A stretch of DNA of 64,000 bases from Arcanobacterium pinnipediorum (GTDB lineage Bacteria; Actinomycetota; Actinomycetes; Actinomycetales; Actinomycetaceae), in NCBI RefSeq assembly GCF_023973165.1, contig NZ_CP099547.1, forward strand, positions 496,001 through 560,000, written 5' to 3'. Below, one piece after another: positions 43,127-64,000 of this stretch. Within the stretch, counting starts at the first letter, position 1. Every line of letters begins with the position of its first letter. Below the pieces are notes generated by a model. The model saw only the letters and a list, made by a program, of their open reading frames with translations, did not search any database and was not told where the DNA came from. The position numbers were made by a program, and so were the translations under genes.

Positions 43127-46100
43127 ATGAGAACAATAATCGCGCTGAGAAGGCGTCTTTTTGTACCGCTGCTTGCTACAATGCTCGCGGCAATGCTATT
43201 TATTCCCAACTTCACTCCGGCGTATGCGGCCATTGGTGATGGCACTGACCCGCAGCCAACCGTTGCTGCTGAAGATGCAGTGGCAGCTGGTGAGGTTGAC
43301 GATCCATCTAAAGTTGATATCTATGTGGGCACTGCAGAAAATCTCGAAGGTGGAACTCTCAAGCTAGACTACTGGTCGGGTGAAACCATCCATGCGGTAG
43401 CTTCAATGAACGCTTCCGGTCCACAAACCGATCTAGCAGATGTGCTATTAACATTGGAATTTCCCAAAGTGCGCGATGCTGATGGTGTTTTGCTTGTTGA
43501 TCGCCCGAGCTTCGTGGACTCCCAGGTAGCAAATTCCAGCACTCCTCGAGAAGACGATGATTTTTGGTATATGGATTACAAGTTCGACACGTTAAAAGGT
43601 GGACAACTTACCCAATTGCCATTTGATTTCGCATTTAAAAATAAAATAACACCAAATGGAACGACTGTGACTCCGACGTTGACGATGTCGATAGCTGGAG
43701 TGAAAACTCAAGAAACAGACGTTATTTTCACATCAAAAGCAACTAGTTCTTATGTCACTGAGCTGCGTCTCTTTTCGCCACAATACAACACGGAACTTCC
43801 AGATGGTAACGGCGGCACAATTTACGGCAAGGAACGGCTAACCTCTACTGCCACAGGCGTTGTGCCTGCTGATGAAGATCCGAAAACGTTTTATGTTTGT
43901 TTAGACACAGCACCTACCACCCAAGCTCCTGATGGTCTGGGAGTGTATGAGGGAAAGGTCGTCACGTATGAAGTAACGATTCCACAAGATGCTGTTGTTG
44001 CAGACGACTTCACTCGATTCGGCTGGGATTGGAAAGATGACCAACGCAAGGTCATCGTCGCAAATGTTCCATTTGCTAAAAATAACGCTAGGAATAATTG
44101 CAGTAGTCCAAACCGATTCAACTTACTGTCGTTCAAGCTGAAATTCAACGGTGCGGCAATTGACAATCCAGATGGTACCATGCGGCTATTCCAGCCAATT
44201 CTCAATACTTGGGTTGACAAAGGCACTGCTAACGAGCAAAAAGTCGGAGAAAAGACACTCGCTATCGCTTTCATTGAAACAGTTCAAGAATTCGCTGGAA
44301 CTCATAAAGTCCAAATGTCCAAGACAGCAAGTTCCCTTGACCCAACCCGTGAGTATGTCAGCGCGAGCTCAAACGGCGCTAAATACTTTTTCGACGGTGA
44401 AGCGATTTCGGTTGTCACTCCTCGTGGCGGAGCTATCCATCTCAACGGCCCGAAGTTTACCAATCCCGATGATGTTGCCGTAGGTCCTATTCCTGCCGAC
44501 AAAGCTGAATTGCCAGGGCTTCGCTGGTATGCAAGAGTGAAGAATACTAACAATGGTTCTGATTTTGAGAATTCCGCTGGGGGACAGCATAGTTTCCTTC
44601 GAAGCATTACTGACTACGATCTTGATCCCGGGTTGTATTATCAACAACTAACCTTGGATCTTCGAGTTTCTTCTAGTGACAACCCAGCACTATCGGAGAA
44701 GGAACAAAAGGCATACGTTAATAGCGTCCCTAATACGCTCTATGGCATTGGTGCTGATGGAAGCCGAACCGAGATTGCACAAAACATCCAGGTAGGTCAG
44801 CATATTGCCATCAAGGATAAGACTCGGCAATATTCTCAGCTTGAACTTGCCTTCCCCACGCCACTTGAACTAGACAATGTTACCTTCGGCTTCTTTGTGC
44901 GGGCTAATGTGACCGATGAAGAAATCGAAAGATGGAATAACGATCTCATCGAAGGTAACGAAAAGATTTACTCCAATAGGATAAAGGCTGATCTGAGGTC
45001 GCTAACCCCTGAGGGAGAAGCGAACGCTGAGTTCTTAGCAGGCGAAGAAACGTTAGATCGTTCCCGCAACAACAATGGTGTAACTGTTGTTCGCGTAGAC
45101 CCACGGTTAAGTACTCAGGTTTTGACCACGTCACGAGAATCTATTTCGGACATTGACGATGTGACCAAGTTGCACGAAGCTTTTGTTGCCGAAGATACAC
45201 GAACCACATTCGCAAACTGCGACGATGGTGTGCTCACCGCGCAGAACTGTTCGCGGGTGAAAATTCTCGAGGTTCGTACCTCACCATCTGGATTGTGGTC
45301 AGGTGGAACTACATCGATCACAAATCTGCGACAGATTATCGTCCTACCGCCAGGTGTTGATTATATCGATACCCTTGCTTCAGTGACTGACAACGCTATC
45401 TCCACTAGCGCTGCGAAACCTGAGGTTATAGAAAATTATCAGAATACTGGTTTGACTGCTCTGATTTATTCCTACGGTGATGTAACGTATGATGGACCTT
45501 CTCAAAAGGTAAATGAAGATTACAATTCTGCATTCTTGAGTGTGGATACCTCTAAGTACGCTAACTATGGACCCAATGAGATTACTGCCTATTCTGTTTG
45601 GGATAACTCGCAAACGGTCAAAGCAGAGCCTGGCATGGAGTATCCAGACGCCTTGGATCTCAACAACAATGGGGCAACTGATGAAGTATTTTCGGTAGCA
45701 CATCGAACTATCTCGCTATCTGCACCACTCGAAGTACTTGGAAAGATCGAAGTCTCTCCAGCGCATGGAGTTGATGCGAATTGGTTATTGAATGGCCCTG
45801 CACAAGATCTCAACTCCGATATTTCATACCGGTTGAGTGCTATCAACAACACGTTGACTCCCATCAATTACTTGTCGATTTTGTCGGTTCTTCCGGCGTT
45901 AGATGATCATAAGATTGTTGCTGACGAAAACGGAATGTACGGTGATCGTCACTGGGAGAATGGGGATCTGCAAGGTGATCATTCTGCTTTTGTTACTCCA
46001 TTAACTGGCCCAGCAACCTTATCGGTAGCGAGTGAAGATGGCGTTGTTAGCGATGCGAGCGATCGATTCGTCATTCGGTATTCGGTAACGGCGCAAGGTC

Positions 46101-49039
46101 CTGATTTAGCGTCTGTGACAGATGCAGTGTGGTACACAGAAGCAGAGTTAACAGCTGCAGGCCATACGTTCGCTGACGTCAAGGCTATCAAAGCCGATTT
46201 GATTGCGGGTAAAGCGGTTGCATCGAAGGAAACAGTGCGGATTGTAGTTCCGGCGCATATTCCGTTCGATGATTCGACAAAGATTCTAGAAAATGGTTCA
46301 ACGGCGTTGATGTCAGTTGCTATTTCAGGTGCGGGCAACAATTATGTTGAGGCTAACGAGATTTCTGCACAGATAGCTCGATATTCAGTTTCAGGTGCGG
46401 TATTCCGTGATCTGAACGCGAACGGCATCCGCGATGATGGCGAGACATTACTCGATGGTAATTCCTGGAAGCTACTTGAGGCAGACGGGACAGGTGTTGT
46501 GATTGACCCAACCATGCCACCAGGTCCAGACAATGCGGTTAGTGGTACTTCTGGCAATATCGATGGCTACTTCTCCGACGTTTATCAACGAGGTGCAGAT
46601 CGCTCGATAATCTTCACTAAGTCGCCTCAAGCTCAGGAACGAGGATTGTACTGGACTAATAGTGCTCGTGATGATTCTGATCGAATTGAGTCCGATGTTA
46701 CTGAGGAAGGTCATACTGATAAGTTCAATTTGACGCCGCTTTCTCCTACTGTTGAACGCAATGCAGGCTTGGCCGGTAAGCGTGATGTCCACCTTGTCAA
46801 GACGGGTGCAGATACTCAGGCGCCGTTAGCAGATGCAGAGTTTACCTTAACGTTTAAGAACTGGTTGGCAGGCGAAATGCCGCCTGCCGGTAAGACGGTC
46901 GAACCCACTGTGACCACGTGGACTGGAAAATCCGATGCGATGGGTAAGGTAGTATTCCCAGCTGTTCCATACGGTGTCTATACGCTTACTGAGACGAAAG
47001 CTCCTGCGAGCTATCAAGCTATTGAAGCTCGCGAAGTAGTTGTTGATGCCAGTGGCGAAGATGTAGGCGTCGATGGGGTAAGCCCGTTGACTATTTCGGT
47101 GGTAGATAATCCTGCTGCTGCTGTGGTACGTGTGGTCAAACATGACGATCAAGGTCAGATTTTGCCTGGTGCCGAGTTCGGTTTGTTCGCCAAGACGGAT
47201 GTTGGTCTAAGTACTGATCCGGTCAAGGCAGCCACATCTGACGCAGGAGGACTAGTTGAGTTTGAGGATGTTGCGTGGGGATCGTATGTTGTGCGTGAAC
47301 TGCGCGCTCCGGAAGGTTACGTCAAGTCTGATGCAGATGTGGCCGTTGACATTAACGCTGATACGGTAACAAGGACTGATGTGGCTGGCGAGGTAGTATT
47401 CGTCGTCGACGCTGGCACGGTTGTTAATAACCAGATTCTTGGCACGGTCAGTGTTATCAAGCATGACGAAGCTGGTCAAGCGTTGGCTGGTGCCGAGTTT
47501 GGCTTGTTCATTAAATCGGATACCGGCGTCGTTGGTGATATGCCGGTTAAGCGTGCTGAGTCAGATGAGAATGGTCAGGCTGTATTCACTGACGTAGCAT
47601 GGGGTAGCTATGTGCTTCGCGAGATAAGCGCACCAGAAGGTTACACGCTGTCTGATACTTCAACCGAGGTTGTTATCGATGCCCAGCACCTGAATGTGGA
47701 TGCAGGTGTTATCACTGACAAGGCCATTATGGGTGTTGTTCAGTTGGTGAAAAAGTCAGATTCAGGAGTCGCTCTTGAAGGTGTAGAGTTTGGTTTGTTT
47801 GCTACCGACGACGAGGGCATTGTTATTGATAATGCTCAACCTACCTATGCGGCTATTTCTGGTAATGATGGCCGGGTAGTATTTGACCAGGTACGTTACG
47901 GCACCTATGAGTTGCGTGAAACTCAGCCATTGGAAGGCTTTGTTGGTCTCGACCAAGTCTTTGGTGTGATTGTAAGTGCCGATGGTGCCGTGATTGATCT
48001 AGGCGATGTGACGAATAAACAGATCCGTGGTGGTGTTGGCTTGATGAAGGTTGACGCTTCTTCTGGTGATCCATTGCAAGGTGGAGTGTTTGAGATTCGA
48101 GTTGTTGATGTTGCTGGCATGAGTGCTGGTAGCGTTGTTGATACTCAAGTTTCAGATGCTAACGGCATGGTTCGGTTCAATAACTTGCTCGCCGGTAGTT
48201 ATGAGGTTCGTGAAGTAACAGCGCCAGATGGTTATGTTCTTTCCGAACAGGTTTATGGCGTGGTGATTGCTTCTGATGGTCAGGTTGTTGATCTGGGTAA
48301 GGTTGGCAATCAGCTGATCCGTGGTGGTGTTGGCTTGATGAAGGTTGACGCTGCCTCTGGTGATCCATTGCAAGGTGGAGTGTTTGAGATTCGAGTTGTT
48401 GATGTTGCTGGCATGAGTGCTGGTAGTGTTGTTGATACTCAAGTTTCAGATGCTAACGGCATGGTTCGGTTCAATAACTTGCTCGCCGGTAGTTATGAGG
48501 TTCGTGAAGTAACAGCGCCAGATGGTTATGTTCTTTCCGAACAGGTTTATGGCGTGGTGATTGCTTCTGATGGTCAGGTTGTTGATCTGGGTAAGGTTGG
48601 CAACCAGCTGATCCGTGGTGGTGTTGGCTTGATGAAGGTTGACGCTGCTTCTGGTGATCCATTGCAAGGTGGAGTGTTTGAGATTCGAGTTGTTGATGTT
48701 GCTGGCATGAGTGCTGGTAGTGTTGTTGATACTCAAGTTTCAGATGCTAACGGCATGGTTCGCTTTGAGGGTCTGCGTTATGGCAGCTACGACGTTCGTG
48801 AAGTGACAGCACCTAAGGGCTACATGCTCTCAGATCAGGTGTGGTCTGTATCTATTGCTTCTGATGGTCAGGTTGTTGATCTGGGTAAGGTTGGCAATAC
48901 GAAGATGCCAGTAATTGTTGAACAGACTAAGGATGGTTTGGCCAAGACTGGTGTGACTATTGGTGGATTGATAGGCCTCGTAGCGGCATTGTTAGCTGCT
49001 AGTGGTGTGTTAATCTACGTTTCACGCCGACGTAAGTAG
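43127..49039 (+). CDS. Giant LPxTG-type surface protein with SdrD-B and SpaA/Cna-B domains
   Basis: A 1970-residue cell-wall adhesin. The signal peptide runs to about residue 35 (LFVPLLATMLAAMLFIPNFTPAYAA). The first ~1080 residues are a non-repetitive exposed region. One SdrD-B-like domain follows (about 1085-1215; SGAVFRDLNANGIRDDGETLL). Seven SpaA/Cna-B-like domains run from about 1218 to 1930, with VxxVK starts and (R/T)E(x)xAPxGY ends that could form Lys-Asn/Glu isopeptide bonds. The last three are almost identical 98-residue units. The C-terminus is LAKTG, a hydrophobic helix and the tail SRRRK, a sortase sorting signal. No sortase or pilin gene is adjacent, so it depends on one elsewhere. 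Start assignment is weak because no clear ribosome site precedes ATG 43127. Confidence 0.88.
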   Translation: MRTIIALRRRLFVPLLATMLAAMLFIPNFTPAYAAIGDGTDPQPTVAAEDAVAAGEVDDPSKVDIYVGTAENLEGGTLKLDYWSGETIHAVASMNASGPQTDLADVLLTLEFPKVRDADGVLLVDRPSFVDSQVANSSTPREDDDFWYMDYKFDTLKGGQLTQLPFDFAFKNKITPNGTTVTPTLTMSIAGVKTQETDVIFTSKATSSYVTELRLFSPQYNTELPDGNGGTIYGKERLTSTATGVVPADEDPKTFYVCLDTAPTTQAPDGLGVYEGKVVTYEVTIPQDAVVADDFTRFGWDWKDDQRKVIVANVPFAKNNARNNCSSPNRFNLLSFKLKFNGAAIDNPDGTMRLFQPILNTWVDKGTANEQKVGEKTLAIAFIETVQEFAGTHKVQMSKTASSLDPTREYVSASSNGAKYFFDGEAISVVTPRGGAIHLNGPKFTNPDDVAVGPIPADKAELPGLRWYARVKNTNNGSDFENSAGGQHSFLRSITDYDLDPGLYYQQLTLDLRVSSSDNPALSEKEQKAYVNSVPNTLYGIGADGSRTEIAQNIQVGQHIAIKDKTRQYSQLELAFPTPLELDNVTFGFFVRANVTDEEIERWNNDLIEGNEKIYSNRIKADLRSLTPEGEANAEFLAGEETLDRSRNNNGVTVVRVDPRLSTQVLTTSRESISDIDDVTKLHEAFVAEDTRTTFANCDDGVLTAQNCSRVKILEVRTSPSGLWSGGTTSITNLRQIIVLPPGVDYIDTLASVTDNAISTSAAKPEVIENYQNTGLTALIYSYGDVTYDGPSQKVNEDYNSAFLSVDTSKYANYGPNEITAYSVWDNSQTVKAEPGMEYPDALDLNNNGATDEVFSVAHRTISLSAPLEVLGKIEVSPAHGVDANWLLNGPAQDLNSDISYRLSAINNTLTPINYLSILSVLPALDDHKIVADENGMYGDRHWENGDLQGDHSAFVTPLTGPATLSVASEDGVVSDASDRFVIRYSVTAQGPDLASVTDAVWYTEAELTAAGHTFADVKAIKADLIAGKAVASKETVRIVVPAHIPFDDSTKILENGSTALMSVAISGAGNNYVEANEISAQIARYSVSGAVFRDLNANGIRDDGETLLDGNSWKLLEADGTGVVIDPTMPPGPDNAVSGTSGNIDGYFSDVYQRGADRSIIFTKSPQAQERGLYWTNSARDDSDRIESDVTEEGHTDKFNLTPLSPTVERNAGLAGKRDVHLVKTGADTQAPLADAEFTLTFKNWLAGEMPPAGKTVEPTVTTWTGKSDAMGKVVFPAVPYGVYTLTETKAPASYQAIEAREVVVDASGEDVGVDGVSPLTISVVDNPAAAVVRVVKHDDQGQILPGAEFGLFAKTDVGLSTDPVKAATSDAGGLVEFEDVAWGSYVVRELRAPEGYVKSDADVAVDINADTVTRTDVAGEVVFVVDAGTVVNNQILGTVSVIKHDEAGQALAGAEFGLFIKSDTGVVGDMPVKRAESDENGQAVFTDVAWGSYVLREISAPEGYTLSDTSTEVVIDAQHLNVDAGVITDKAIMGVVQLVKKSDSGVALEGVEFGLFATDDEGIVIDNAQPTYAAISGNDGRVVFDQVRYGTYELRETQPLEGFVGLDQVFGVIVSADGAVIDLGDVTNKQIRGGVGLMKVDASSGDPLQGGVFEIRVVDVAGMSAGSVVDTQVSDANGMVRFNNLLAGSYEVREVTAPDGYVLSEQVYGVVIASDGQVVDLGKVGNQLIRGGVGLMKVDAASGDPLQGGVFEIRVVDVAGMSAGSVVDTQVSDANGMVRFNNLLAGSYEVREVTAPDGYVLSEQVYGVVIASDGQVVDLGKVGNQLIRGGVGLMKVDAASGDPLQGGVFEIRVVDVAGMSAGSVVDTQVSDANGMVRFEGLRYGSYDVREVTAPKGYMLSDQVWSVSIASDGQVVDLGKVGNTKMPVIVEQTKDGLAKTGVTIGGLIGLVAALLAASGVLIYVSRRRK
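48023..48904 (+). repeat. Three tandem 294-bp coding repeats in the surface protein
   Basis: Units begin at 48023, 48317 and 48611 (each starts ATCCGTGGTGGTGTTGGCTT). Units 1 and 2 are nearly identical; unit 3 diverges in its last third (CGCTTTGAGGGTCTGCG...). The period is in frame (98 codons), so unit number can vary without loss of reading frame. Confidence 0.95.
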
Positions 49040-61103: not shown

Positions 61104-62022
61104 TTCGGTTCATTGATGAGTATCGAAATCGTTTCTCTGTCGAGTTCATCTGCAAGACGTTAAACACTCACCGTGTTGGTGGTTTCATCACTTCTCGTGG
61201 CTATCGTCAATCAAAATCCCGTGGTGTGAGTGCTCGTAGCCTGCGTGATGCTGCTGCCGATAGTGCATATCGTTGAGGTTCATGAAAGTAACTACAATGT
61301 CTACGGGATTCGTAAGATGTGGCACGCGTTGCGCCATGAGGGGATCGATATTGGTCGTGAGCAAACCGCTCGTTTGATGCGCCTTGCTGGAGTTAGTGGT
61401 AAAGGTAAGGGCCGCTTGCCTGTGACAACTCGCAAACCTCGGGGGCTAGATACTCGCCCGGACTTGGTGAAACGTGAATTTCGAGCTCCGAGGCCGAATC
61501 GGTTGTGGGTGGGGTGACATTACCTATGTCCGTACCCGTAAGGGGTTTGTCTACACCGCTTTTGTGACCGATGTGTTCTCCCGACGGATTGTCGGGTGGG
61601 CGCTAGTCGGTTCAATGCGAACTGAAGCGTTGCCGTTGCAGGCGCTCAATCAGGCGATCGTATGTGCGAAGAAAACAACTGGGCTGATTCACCATTCAGA
61701 CCACGGCTCGCAGTATGTGTCCATTGTTTACAATGAGCGTCTTGCCGAGCATGGGATTACTGCCTCGACAGGGACGGTTGGCGATTCCTATGACAATGCT
61801 TTGGCTGAGAACGTCAACGGTTCTTACAAGAATGAGCTGATTCATAGGCGGTCATGGGCGGACGTGGTTGACGTAGAAATCGCGACGTTTGAATGGGTTT
61901 CGTGGTGGAACGAGTCACGACTTCACCAGAGCTTGGGCTACCGTACACCGGCTGAGGTTGAACAGGAGTTTTGGAACGGCAACACCGGCCATGAAATAAT
62001 AGAAATCAAGGCACGTGCCTAG
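61100..62022 (+). pseudogene. IS3-family transposase OrfB, two frameshifts
   Basis: Homology runs through three frames. 61100-61275 encodes MIRFIDEYRNRFSVEFICKTL; about 61270-61510 encodes ESNYNVYGIRKMWHALRHEGIDIGREQTARLM to RPNRLWV; about 61515-62022 encodes DITYVRTRKGFVYTAF (first catalytic Asp), IHHSDHGSQYVS (second Asp) and DNALAENVNGSYKNELI (Glu). All rve integrase-core residues are present but split across frames, so it is very probably inactive. Confidence 0.88.
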
Positions 62023-62044: not shown

Positions 62045-62644
62045 TCACACCACACGCTACCCAAGTCGCTGACCACTTCCACGTCATCACATTAGCTAAC
62101 CGAGCCCTTGATCGTGTACGCCGGGGTGTTCAACAACAAACACTTGGACACCGCGGACGAAAAACCGACCCGCTCTACCGTATAAGACGCCAACTTGTCT
62201 ACGGACAAGAAAAACTCACCGATAAAACACAACATCGGATCGAATCACTTTTACGCTTAGGAGACCCTCATGGTGAAGTCGCTATCGCTTACCGTGTCAA
62301 AGAACGCCTCCGAAATTTCTACGCTCAAGACAACATCACCACCGCTCAAACCATGCTTGATCAACTCATCAACCACACCAGCCAGGACTTCATGCCCCAA
62401 GAAATCCAACAACTTAGCCGAACACTTAAAAACTGGTATCACCAGATCCTGGCCTACCACCACGCCCGCCTATCGAACTCGATCACCGAAGCCATGAACA
62501 ACCTCATCAAACGCATCAAAAGAATCGGCTACGGATTTACCAACTTCACCAACTACCGCATCAGATGCCTTCTCTACGCAGGCAAACCCAACTGGCGACT
62601 CCTCAACACAATCTTCCCCTAACCCCGCCAAAATCCGAAGAGCC
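62045..62644 (+). mobile_element. 3' fragment of the same ISL3 element as at 1349-2745
   Basis: 600 bp nearly identical to 2146-2745 (only a few differences, e.g. GCCGGGG for GCCGGCG near 62122), ending in an intact right terminal repeat. The left part is absent; it begins exactly at the IS3 right end. The remaining frame (to 62622) encodes the C-terminal half of the transposase and is not functional. Immediately after it, GCTAAAACGCGAAGAGCC resembles a second ISL3-type terminal end. Confidence 0.93.
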
Positions 62645-62811
62645 GCTAAAACGCGAAGAGCCGCTTTTCTCATGCCCAGAAATCGTGGCAACAGGGAAGC
62701 GATTGTGCTCGGGAAGTGTTTCCGCAGGTCAGAGCTAACGCGCTAAACACTCGCTAATGGAAGTGTTTTTCTTGACCCCCTTGGGGCATAAGGGCTAACG
62801 CAAACGCCGAC

Positions 62812-62859
62812 TTATCATTTTCGACGTCTAAGTGGATACTTAGACGTCGAAAATGATAA
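62812..62859. terminator. 21-bp perfect hairpin in the 62645-63591 gap
   Basis: TTATCATTTTCGACGTCTAA... (62812-62832) pairs with 62839-62859 around TGGATA. T/A-rich ends suit a bidirectional terminator. The gap has no supported gene; 62880-62950 contains a sequence similar to 57912-57945 and a GC-rich stretch near 62960-63040 with a GCGAGC-AG-GCTCGC dyad. Confidence 0.6.
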
Positions 62860-63591: not shown

Positions 63592-63735
63592 GTGACAAAA
63601 CAAAAAGAGAACTTCGATTCGAGCCATAAAACCGATGAAGATCGCTCTCTATGGAGGTGCGATGTGTGGCTCTTGCTGGGTCTCGGAATAGGGGGGGTCT
63701 TAGGGCTTCTCACCTACACACAAGGTTGGTTATAG
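63592..63735 (+). CDS. Small single-helix membrane protein upstream of the lanthipeptide precursor
   Basis: A 47-residue protein starting at GTG with AAAGGAG 6 bp upstream. A polar N-terminal half (KQKENFDSSHKTDEDRSLWR) is followed by one membrane helix with several glycines (WLLLGLGIGGVLGLLTYTQG). It ends 26 bp before the precursor gene on the same strand, so it is probably cotranscribed. It could be an immunity or accessory peptide of the bacteriocin locus, or a second short precursor, though it lacks a double-glycine leader. No homologue is recognised. Confidence 0.6.
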   Translation: MTKQKENFDSSHKTDEDRSLWRCDVWLLLGLGIGGVLGLLTYTQGWL

Positions 63736-63761
63736 CTTATTTTACTTTGGAAGGATTAATT

Positions 63762-63980
63762 ATGAACAGCGAACATTTTGGCGCCTCGTTCACAGAACTT
63801 ACGCAAGAGGAAATGGACTTCATTACGGGAGCGAATGGTTCAGCACAACCCCATGCAACACCTACCGTGACAACCAGTTCATTTCCATGTATCAATATCA
63901 CCACTAGTTCCTGGGTCTGTATTAGTGGAGGTGTTTCTGCTCTCTCGGGACTAGTTTCATACACAAAGCGGTGCATATAA
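63762..63980 (+). CDS. Probable class II lanthipeptide (lantibiotic) precursor, LanA-like
   Basis: A 72-residue peptide preceded by GGAAGGATT. The leader (residues 1 to about 26) has the class II pattern FTELTQEEMDFITGANG, with acidic ELTQEEMD and a terminal GA/GG-like cleavage region. The core (about 27-72) has many Ser and Thr and three Cys: TTSSFPCIN (C43), TTSSWVCIS (C53) and SYTKRCI (C71). Dehydration and ring closure (for example T38-C43, T48 or S49-C53, S66 or T68-C71) would give a three-ring lanthipeptide. A gene with a strong ribosome site begins 13 bp after the stop, where modification or partner genes are expected. Assignment rests on leader and core pattern; LanM is not visible. 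Confidence 0.75.
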   Translation: MNSEHFGASFTELTQEEMDFITGANGSAQPHATPTVTTSSFPCINITTSSWVCISGGVSALSGLVSYTKRCI

Positions 63981-63993
63981 GGAGGTAAATGTC

Positions 63994-64000
63994 ATGAAAC
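63994..64000 (+). CDS. Start of a truncated gene at the window edge
   Basis: ATG at 63994, preceded at 8 bp by AAGGAGG, which overlaps the precursor stop region. Only two codons are inside the window (Met-Lys). Its position and spacing make it the next gene of the lanthipeptide operon, such as a second precursor or a modification enzyme, but no identity can be given. Confidence 0.4.

Follow-up and report, generated by a model that had tools for sequence, protein, structure and literature searches.

The window analysed here is a stretch of 64,000 nucleotides of the Arcanobacterium pinnipediorum genome (contig NZ_CP099547.1, hereafter C1, positions 496001-560000; the genome is this one contig of 1,952,277 bases), and its right end holds the first genes of a putative lanthipeptide operon. 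We consider it likely that this is a class II two-peptide operon (a gene for a 47-residue peptide, hereafter 47-mer, then lanA1, lanA2, lanM, lanJB and lanT), that a 51-kb prophage carries it as cargo close to one of its ends, and that it makes a peptide pair that kills related Gram-positives. The genes, their order and the kept catalytic motifs are read directly from the DNA, as are the location of the operon within the prophage boundaries and its conservation in another genome. Judged by sequence, the operon is of class II and its LanM is intact; the product is probably a two-part, ring-containing, antibacterial peptide. The operon was read beyond the window edge on the same contig, and all six genes are taken as one set. 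Positions labelled L003 refer to C1:555001-575000, and a window coordinate equals the L003 position plus 59000. The second genome is the metagenome-assembled genome Arcanobacterium sp. SUG972 (locus L005).

Operon and precursor peptides

A first-pass annotation had placed the start of a probable class II lanthipeptide operon at this end of the window. LanM, a flavin mononucleotide (FMN) reductase and LanT do follow on the same contig, just past the window, and the idea of a precursor without machinery was discarded. Finding lanM or lanT within about 10 kb had been set beforehand as the test; they begin 0.36 kb and 4.1 kb past the edge, respectively. The 47-residue open reading frame (ORF), the Ser/Thr-rich precursor with three Cys and the edge gene with a ribosome site are all found where that annotation had placed them (Table 1). 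As for the edge gene, its start and strong ribosome site hold, and what had been described simply as another gene is now identified as a second precursor, A2, which makes this a two-peptide system. The two precursors are different, and they are kept as a pair in SUG972.

The Cys residues of A1 are found at positions 43, 53 and 71. After the GA motif there are 16 Ser/Thr in A1 and 15 in A2, with 3 and 2 Cys. In terms of families, A2 reaches 38.5 bits with TIGR03893, the lichenicidin A2/SP_1948 family (curated cut-off 32.95 bits), and A1 passes Pfam PF16934 with 32.9 bits (cut-off 27.6). A large protein search gave 25 precursor matches, two of which are this genome's own sequences. A named pair among them comes from Actinomyces trachealis (57% and 81% identical to A1, on contigs of equal length, 11,870), and named single matches come from Actinomyces qiguomingii, Oceanivirga, Mammaliicoccus and Solibacillus. 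The core had earlier been called unlike any named lantibiotic, and this view, tested against family models and by protein search only, needs correction: the precursors lie in or just under TIGR03893, so the core is unusual yet not unprecedented.

A strong hairpin follows lanA2; its energy of -39.8 kcal/mol compares with a mean of -17.3 for shuffled sequences (z -7.0), and its counterpart in SUG972 has a z of -5.3. There is no T-run after it on the operon strand, and a promoter and terminator scan gave one promoter-like site, against 2.0 expected by chance, and no terminator-like site. The hairpin is therefore better described as a stabiliser or partial barrier than as a clear terminator, and it may allow more precursor than enzyme to be made.

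LanM and LanT

LanM scores 505 bits with TIGR03897 (cut-off 304) and contains both the DUF4135 dehydratase and the LANC_like cyclase domains of Pfam. Its best solved relative is CylM. Positions were taken from the alignment to this solved protein, and all 10 dehydratase positions compared (D, H, K, D, H, N, D, E, R, T) are kept, together with the zinc site (Cys-885, Cys-930 and His-931). The motifs are located at 250, 271, 347, 364, 503, 883 and 930.

LanT contains a Peptidase_C39 domain (PF03412, 117.2 bits) and full ATP-binding cassette (ABC) transporter domains, and it keeps the Cys, His and Asp residues as well as the Walker and signature motifs. An NHLM-type exporter was considered for this protein and rejected, the best NCBIfam model, TIGR03796, giving 479.7 bits, far below its cut-off of 853.3.

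Conservation and distribution

All six genes are found in identical order in SUG972, the only named relative with LanM in the contig search, and ORF starts and ribosome sites align for the 47-mer, A1 and A2. The ratio of nonsynonymous to synonymous substitution (dN/dS) was calculated pairwise by the Nei-Gojobori method from two sequences per gene, this genome and SUG972, without a significance test. Identity and dN/dS are 64 of 72 residues and 0.08 for A1, 58 of 72 and 0.11 for A2, 822 of 1016 (81%) and 0.16 for LanM, 202 of 233 and 0.10 for the reductase, and 605 of 711 and 0.12 for LanT. Chance ORFs were rejected on these grounds: frames, ribosome sites and gene order are all retained in the second genome, and dN/dS stays under 0.4.

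Within the family, a LanM match is present in 20 of 213 genomes, including the window's own; the second genome (G073) alone is close, at 81%, and the next reaches 29%. Within the genus, LanM is found in one of nine genomes, again the window's own.

The 47-residue peptide

The large protein search found six relatives of the 47-mer, with identities of 41-53%. Its start codon is GTG here and ATG in SUG972. The conserved part is the C-terminal hydrophobic half, with 18 of 22 residues identical and a dN/dS of 0.20, against 6 of 25 and 0.43 in the part before it. Small membrane peptides act as immunity factors in some lantibiotic systems, and by analogy we infer that the 47-mer is a candidate membrane immunity peptide. 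It might instead work together with LanT or be a third structural peptide, a serious possibility to which we give somewhat less credit. Its place as first gene of the operon and the conservation of its C-terminal half would fit such a role, but no double-glycine-type leader is visible, the relative lacks its single Cys, and the membrane immunity peptides just mentioned offer a precedent for the other role.

The FMN reductase

The redox gene matches PF03358 with 64.6 bits (cut-off 24) and PF02525 under cut-off; with these as its Pfam matches, a LanD-type flavoprotein was set aside. Among solved proteins it has a single relative by sequence, SP1951 of Streptococcus pneumoniae (E 1.4e-26), three locus numbers away from SP_1948, the namesake of the precursor family. 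The large protein search returned 10 matches, one of them its own sequence. In a plasmid collection, relatives are present in 20 of 72,556 records, of which two were opened, one from Priestia and one staphylococcal. The Priestia megaterium plasmid has the reductase homologue beside two mersacidin-type precursors, a LanM, an ABC transporter with a peptidase domain (C39-type) and an S8 protease. In the case of the staphylococcal plasmid, it lies beside LanM genes and a precursor of the LchA2/BrtA2 type.

Two papers describe LanJB as belonging to an FMN reductase family of this kind (PMC7794033, PMC7268733), and a third cites CrnJ of carnolysin as an example of LanJB (PMC10373908). With 16 and 15 Ser/Thr for 3 and 2 Cys, many residues are left for a reductase, and by analogy with these enzymes it probably converts some leftover dehydro residues to D-Ala and D-aminobutyrate (D-Abu). 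It is unlikely that the enzyme makes no D-amino acids and carries out some other redox reaction or serves to recycle flavin. The family PF03358 is broad, and the NCBIfam equivalogs match the protein weakly (E 0.02-0.08); likeness to known LanJB enzymes was judged at the family level. Against this, the reductase is co-located with LanM and precursors in four loci, dehydratable residues exceed Cys in both cores, and the literature places such reductases in class II clusters (PMC7794033, PMC7268733).

Proposed action of the peptides

From what is known of their families, LanM would dehydrate Ser/Thr in both cores and close (methyl)lanthionine rings onto Cys, the reductase would turn some of the remaining dehydro residues into D-Ala or D-Abu, and LanT would cleave the leader at the GA/GG region and export both peptides. 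The roles in killing and immunity are proposed by analogy: outside the cell the pair would kill related Gram-positive bacteria, and the 47-mer, located in the producer membrane, would protect the producer. The phage would gain because the operon would help lysogens outcompete non-lysogens.

A different main target was also considered, in which the peptides are a cytolysin or a signal directed at animal cells or at the producer's own population, and not a bacteriocin. The description of PF16934 refers to the enterococcal cytolysin, and CylM is the closest solved LanM. The SP_1948 cluster is presumably the same as the pneumococcal lantibiotic cluster under quorum control. This pneumococcal cluster is reported to be controlled by a peptide quorum system (PMC5436883, PMC6753895). 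We still regard this reading as improbable: the family model nearest to the precursors is that of lichenicidin A2, the six genes include no sensor or regulator, and the cargo setting with bacterial defence genes, described below, suggests bacterial rivals as the target.

The prophage around the operon

The operon is located at the left end of a prophage of 51,353 bp, inside the 165-bp direct repeats that bound it; the genome contains no further full copy of this repeat. PHROGs annotation of 10 proteins between the repeats gave an exonuclease, a helicase, a large terminase, a head maturation protease, a major head protein, a tape measure, a holin, an endolysin and two integrases, the latter being the serine recombinases. 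The G+C content (GC) of the operon is 45.3%, compared with 57.2% in the remaining phage and 50.1% in the chromosome to the left, a contrast that suggests recent arrival from elsewhere. We examined the tRNA-Gly site in five same-genus genomes (L042-L046) out of eight others with flank matches. Remnants of related prophages are found at tRNA-Gly(ccc) in all five, so this site has been used repeatedly.

We judge it quite improbable that the operon is an ordinary chromosomal lantibiotic island merely adjoining the prophage, with a coincidental phage association: transposase remnants just left of the repeat mark the region as a mosaic, the operon differs from the phage in GC and is present in 0 of 80 related viral loci, but it lies inside the repeats, and in the second genome (G073), which is placed in another genus, it interrupts a phage restriction locus and the same early phage genes come after it.

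Table 1. Positions of the operon genes and prophage boundaries. Plain numbers are window coordinates.
Feature	Position	Strand	Remarks
47-residue peptide ORF, one hydrophobic stretch	63592..63735	+	GTG start behind AAGGAG; 47 codons
lanA1, 72-residue lanthipeptide precursor	63762..63980	+	GGAAGGA ribosome site; GA motif at leader end; 3 Cys
lanA2, second 72-residue precursor	63994..64000 in window, continues to C1:560212 (L003:4994-5212)	+	ATG behind AGGAGG; 2 Cys
Strong hairpin after lanA2	about L003:5221-5283		between lanA2 and lanM, outside window
lanM	L003:5356-8406		start C1:560356, 0.36 kb past window
lanJB-like FMN reductase gene	L003:8411-9112		outside window
lanT	L003:9109-11244		start C1:564109, 4.1 kb past window
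Left 165-bp direct repeat, left prophage end	62663..62827	+	repeat search
48-bp inverted repeat at inner edge of left repeat	62812..62859	.	minus-strand self-match
Right repeat copy (94%)	C1:609851-610015		begins 47 bases past two serine recombinases; tRNA-Gly(ccc) follows 5 bases further on
tRNA-Gly(ccc)	C1:610021-610094		phage integration site

As for other features, the transposase remnants directly left of the prophage consist of an rve domain (window 61474-62022) and an ISL3-type 3' piece (62353-62622), and a piece of 21-30 bases near window 62643 recurs at seven other places in the genome. Inside the prophage, the gene at L004:8665-9861 has all three S-adenosylmethionine synthetase domains and adjoins a ParB-like/methyltransferase-like ORF. 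Further to the left, window 43127-49039 contains an ORF of 1,970 codons with SpaA prealbumin-like and SdrD B-like repeats, which is likely a large surface protein.

A probable cargo slot shared with defence genes

In SUG972, the operon has on its 5' side a remnant matching residues 1-214 of the HsdM protein of viral locus L073 and on its 3' side a remnant matching residues 908-996 of the L073 HsdR. After the HsdR remnant there are a helix-turn-helix gene, an IrrE/ImmA-type gene (by Pfam) and early phage genes. The corresponding stretch contains hsdM-hsdS-hsdR in L084, and hsdM and hsdR in L073. Truncated hsdM and hsdR thus flank the SUG972 operon, which means that a restriction locus of the phage has had its central part replaced by the operon. 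Beside the operon in the window's genome, no hsdM or hsdR remnants were found. Here the right neighbour of lanT is a two-gene system (L003:11400-14482, minus strand; C1:566400-569482) whose domains are DUF2326 and ABC-3C CTD11 and whose Lamassu-like matches in PADLOC are weak. Of the 95 related viral loci 80 were kept, and relatives of this system are found upstream of the same early gene in nine of them, one being 93% identical.

Upstream genes were read in 13 of the 80 loci, picked for having upstream DNA, and 10 slot proteins from eight of these 13 were picked for a defence-like look. Nine of the 10 match PADLOC models at 1e-5 and the L056 protein matches none; as the proteins were hand-picked, this is no survey proportion. 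The slot in these phages contains restriction or Lamassu-like genes. PMC12715929 reports class II clusters near restriction systems, recombinases and phage genes, and Arcanobacterium goes unmentioned in the main text of that paper.

The operon is best seen as exchangeable cargo of a temperate phage, with which it would move. An anti-phage function, in which the operon would guard its lysogen against infection by further phages like the genes normally found in the slot, seems to us very doubtful, even with restriction-modification or Lamassu-like genes in the slot of related phages, Streptomyces lanthipeptide clusters with an anti-phage effect (PMC12360287) and class II clusters co-located with defence genes (PMC12715929).

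Several results weigh against a prophage-borne lantibiotic pair with its own immunity. In terms of phage carriage, tblastn of the operon genes (E 1e-5) gave no match in the 80 related viral loci, many of which are short upstream, and pattern scans of IMG/VR for LanM and the reductase, which require exact short stretches and so reach close relatives only, found no relative. Among 50,697 phage records, a LanM match is present in one, at 23% identity, and the reductase in none. No clean empty integration site was seen among the five same-genus genomes examined. Such near-empty phage collections mean that phage carriage is rare, recent or unsampled. For the precursors, A1 reaches 32.1 bits with TIGR03893, 0.85 bit short of the cut-off, and A2 stays under that of PF16934 with 18.6 bits. 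The 47-mer has no family match in Pfam or NCBIfam, and its 24 of 47 identical residues and dN/dS of 0.39 in SUG972 make it the weakest of the six genes. Furthermore, the first-pass annotation had looked to the next DNA for lanP and immunity genes, and no LanP, LanFEG or regulator is present among the six genes; a dedicated LanP was rejected, the genome's sole S8 match being a distant frame of 1,802 codons.

The lone phage LanM match is located at OR846606.1:30849-33800 in Enterococcus phage Efs 1-1-1, where it is unannotated, and may be host DNA.

Relation to known systems

Class II two-peptide lantibiotics, LanJB enzymes and phage-borne bacteriocin clusters are known kinds. The closest is the lichenicidin A2/SP_1948 type (TIGR03893), which resembles the operon in precursor profile (A2 above the cut-off, A1 slightly below it), two precursors, LanM, C39 exporter and the reductase relative SP1951; the operon differs from it in the 47-mer, in the lack of a LanP among the six genes and in cores of its own, which have 3 and 2 Cys. 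Carnolysin and bicereucin, two-peptide systems with LanJB and D-amino acids, are alike in being class II, a likeness taken from descriptions, and D-residues are predicted in the case studied here. In the Priestia megaterium plasmid (NZ_CP120606.1), the two mersacidin-type precursors, the reductase (33% identity), LanM and the C39-type exporter likewise stand in one run. There, on the contrary, the reductase precedes LanM, an S8 protease is present and the carrier is a plasmid; its gene table, which is incomplete, contains no such 47-mer. Finally, Dragos et al. 2021 (cited in PMC10047993) reportedly described phage-borne biosynthetic clusters, including temperate phages that carry bacteriocin genes. 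The operon differs from these in that its LanM system is of class II and its carrier an actinobacterial prophage, where it occupies a slot used for defence genes in related phages.

What seems new is this peptide pair, the 47-mer and a lantibiotic operon taking over the restriction locus in a temperate-phage slot. No case of such a takeover appeared in the open-licence literature among the matches listed. The genus name was likewise absent among the 20 of 555 matches listed for Arcanobacterium with lanthipeptides, a result of little weight.

Meaning of the finding

The operon adds a putative two-peptide lantibiotic from an actinobacterium with a small genome; a tailoring enzyme that probably makes D-amino acids belongs to it, and so does a short membrane peptide that is a candidate for immunity. 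It also links a class II operon to one particular cargo slot of phages, and in one relative the restriction locus there has been cleanly substituted. This makes the statistical link of lanthipeptide clusters with defence genes (PMC12715929) directly testable. More tentatively, and we would not call it probable, one exchangeable slot beside the early genes of an actinobacterial temperate phage may serve both anti-phage systems and a complete lantibiotic operon of the D-amino-acid type with an immunity peptide. Such a prophage would arm its host against non-lysogens and punish its own loss through the lost immunity. If true, the reported co-location of class II clusters and restriction systems would have a simple physical basis, both being passengers of the same phage slot.
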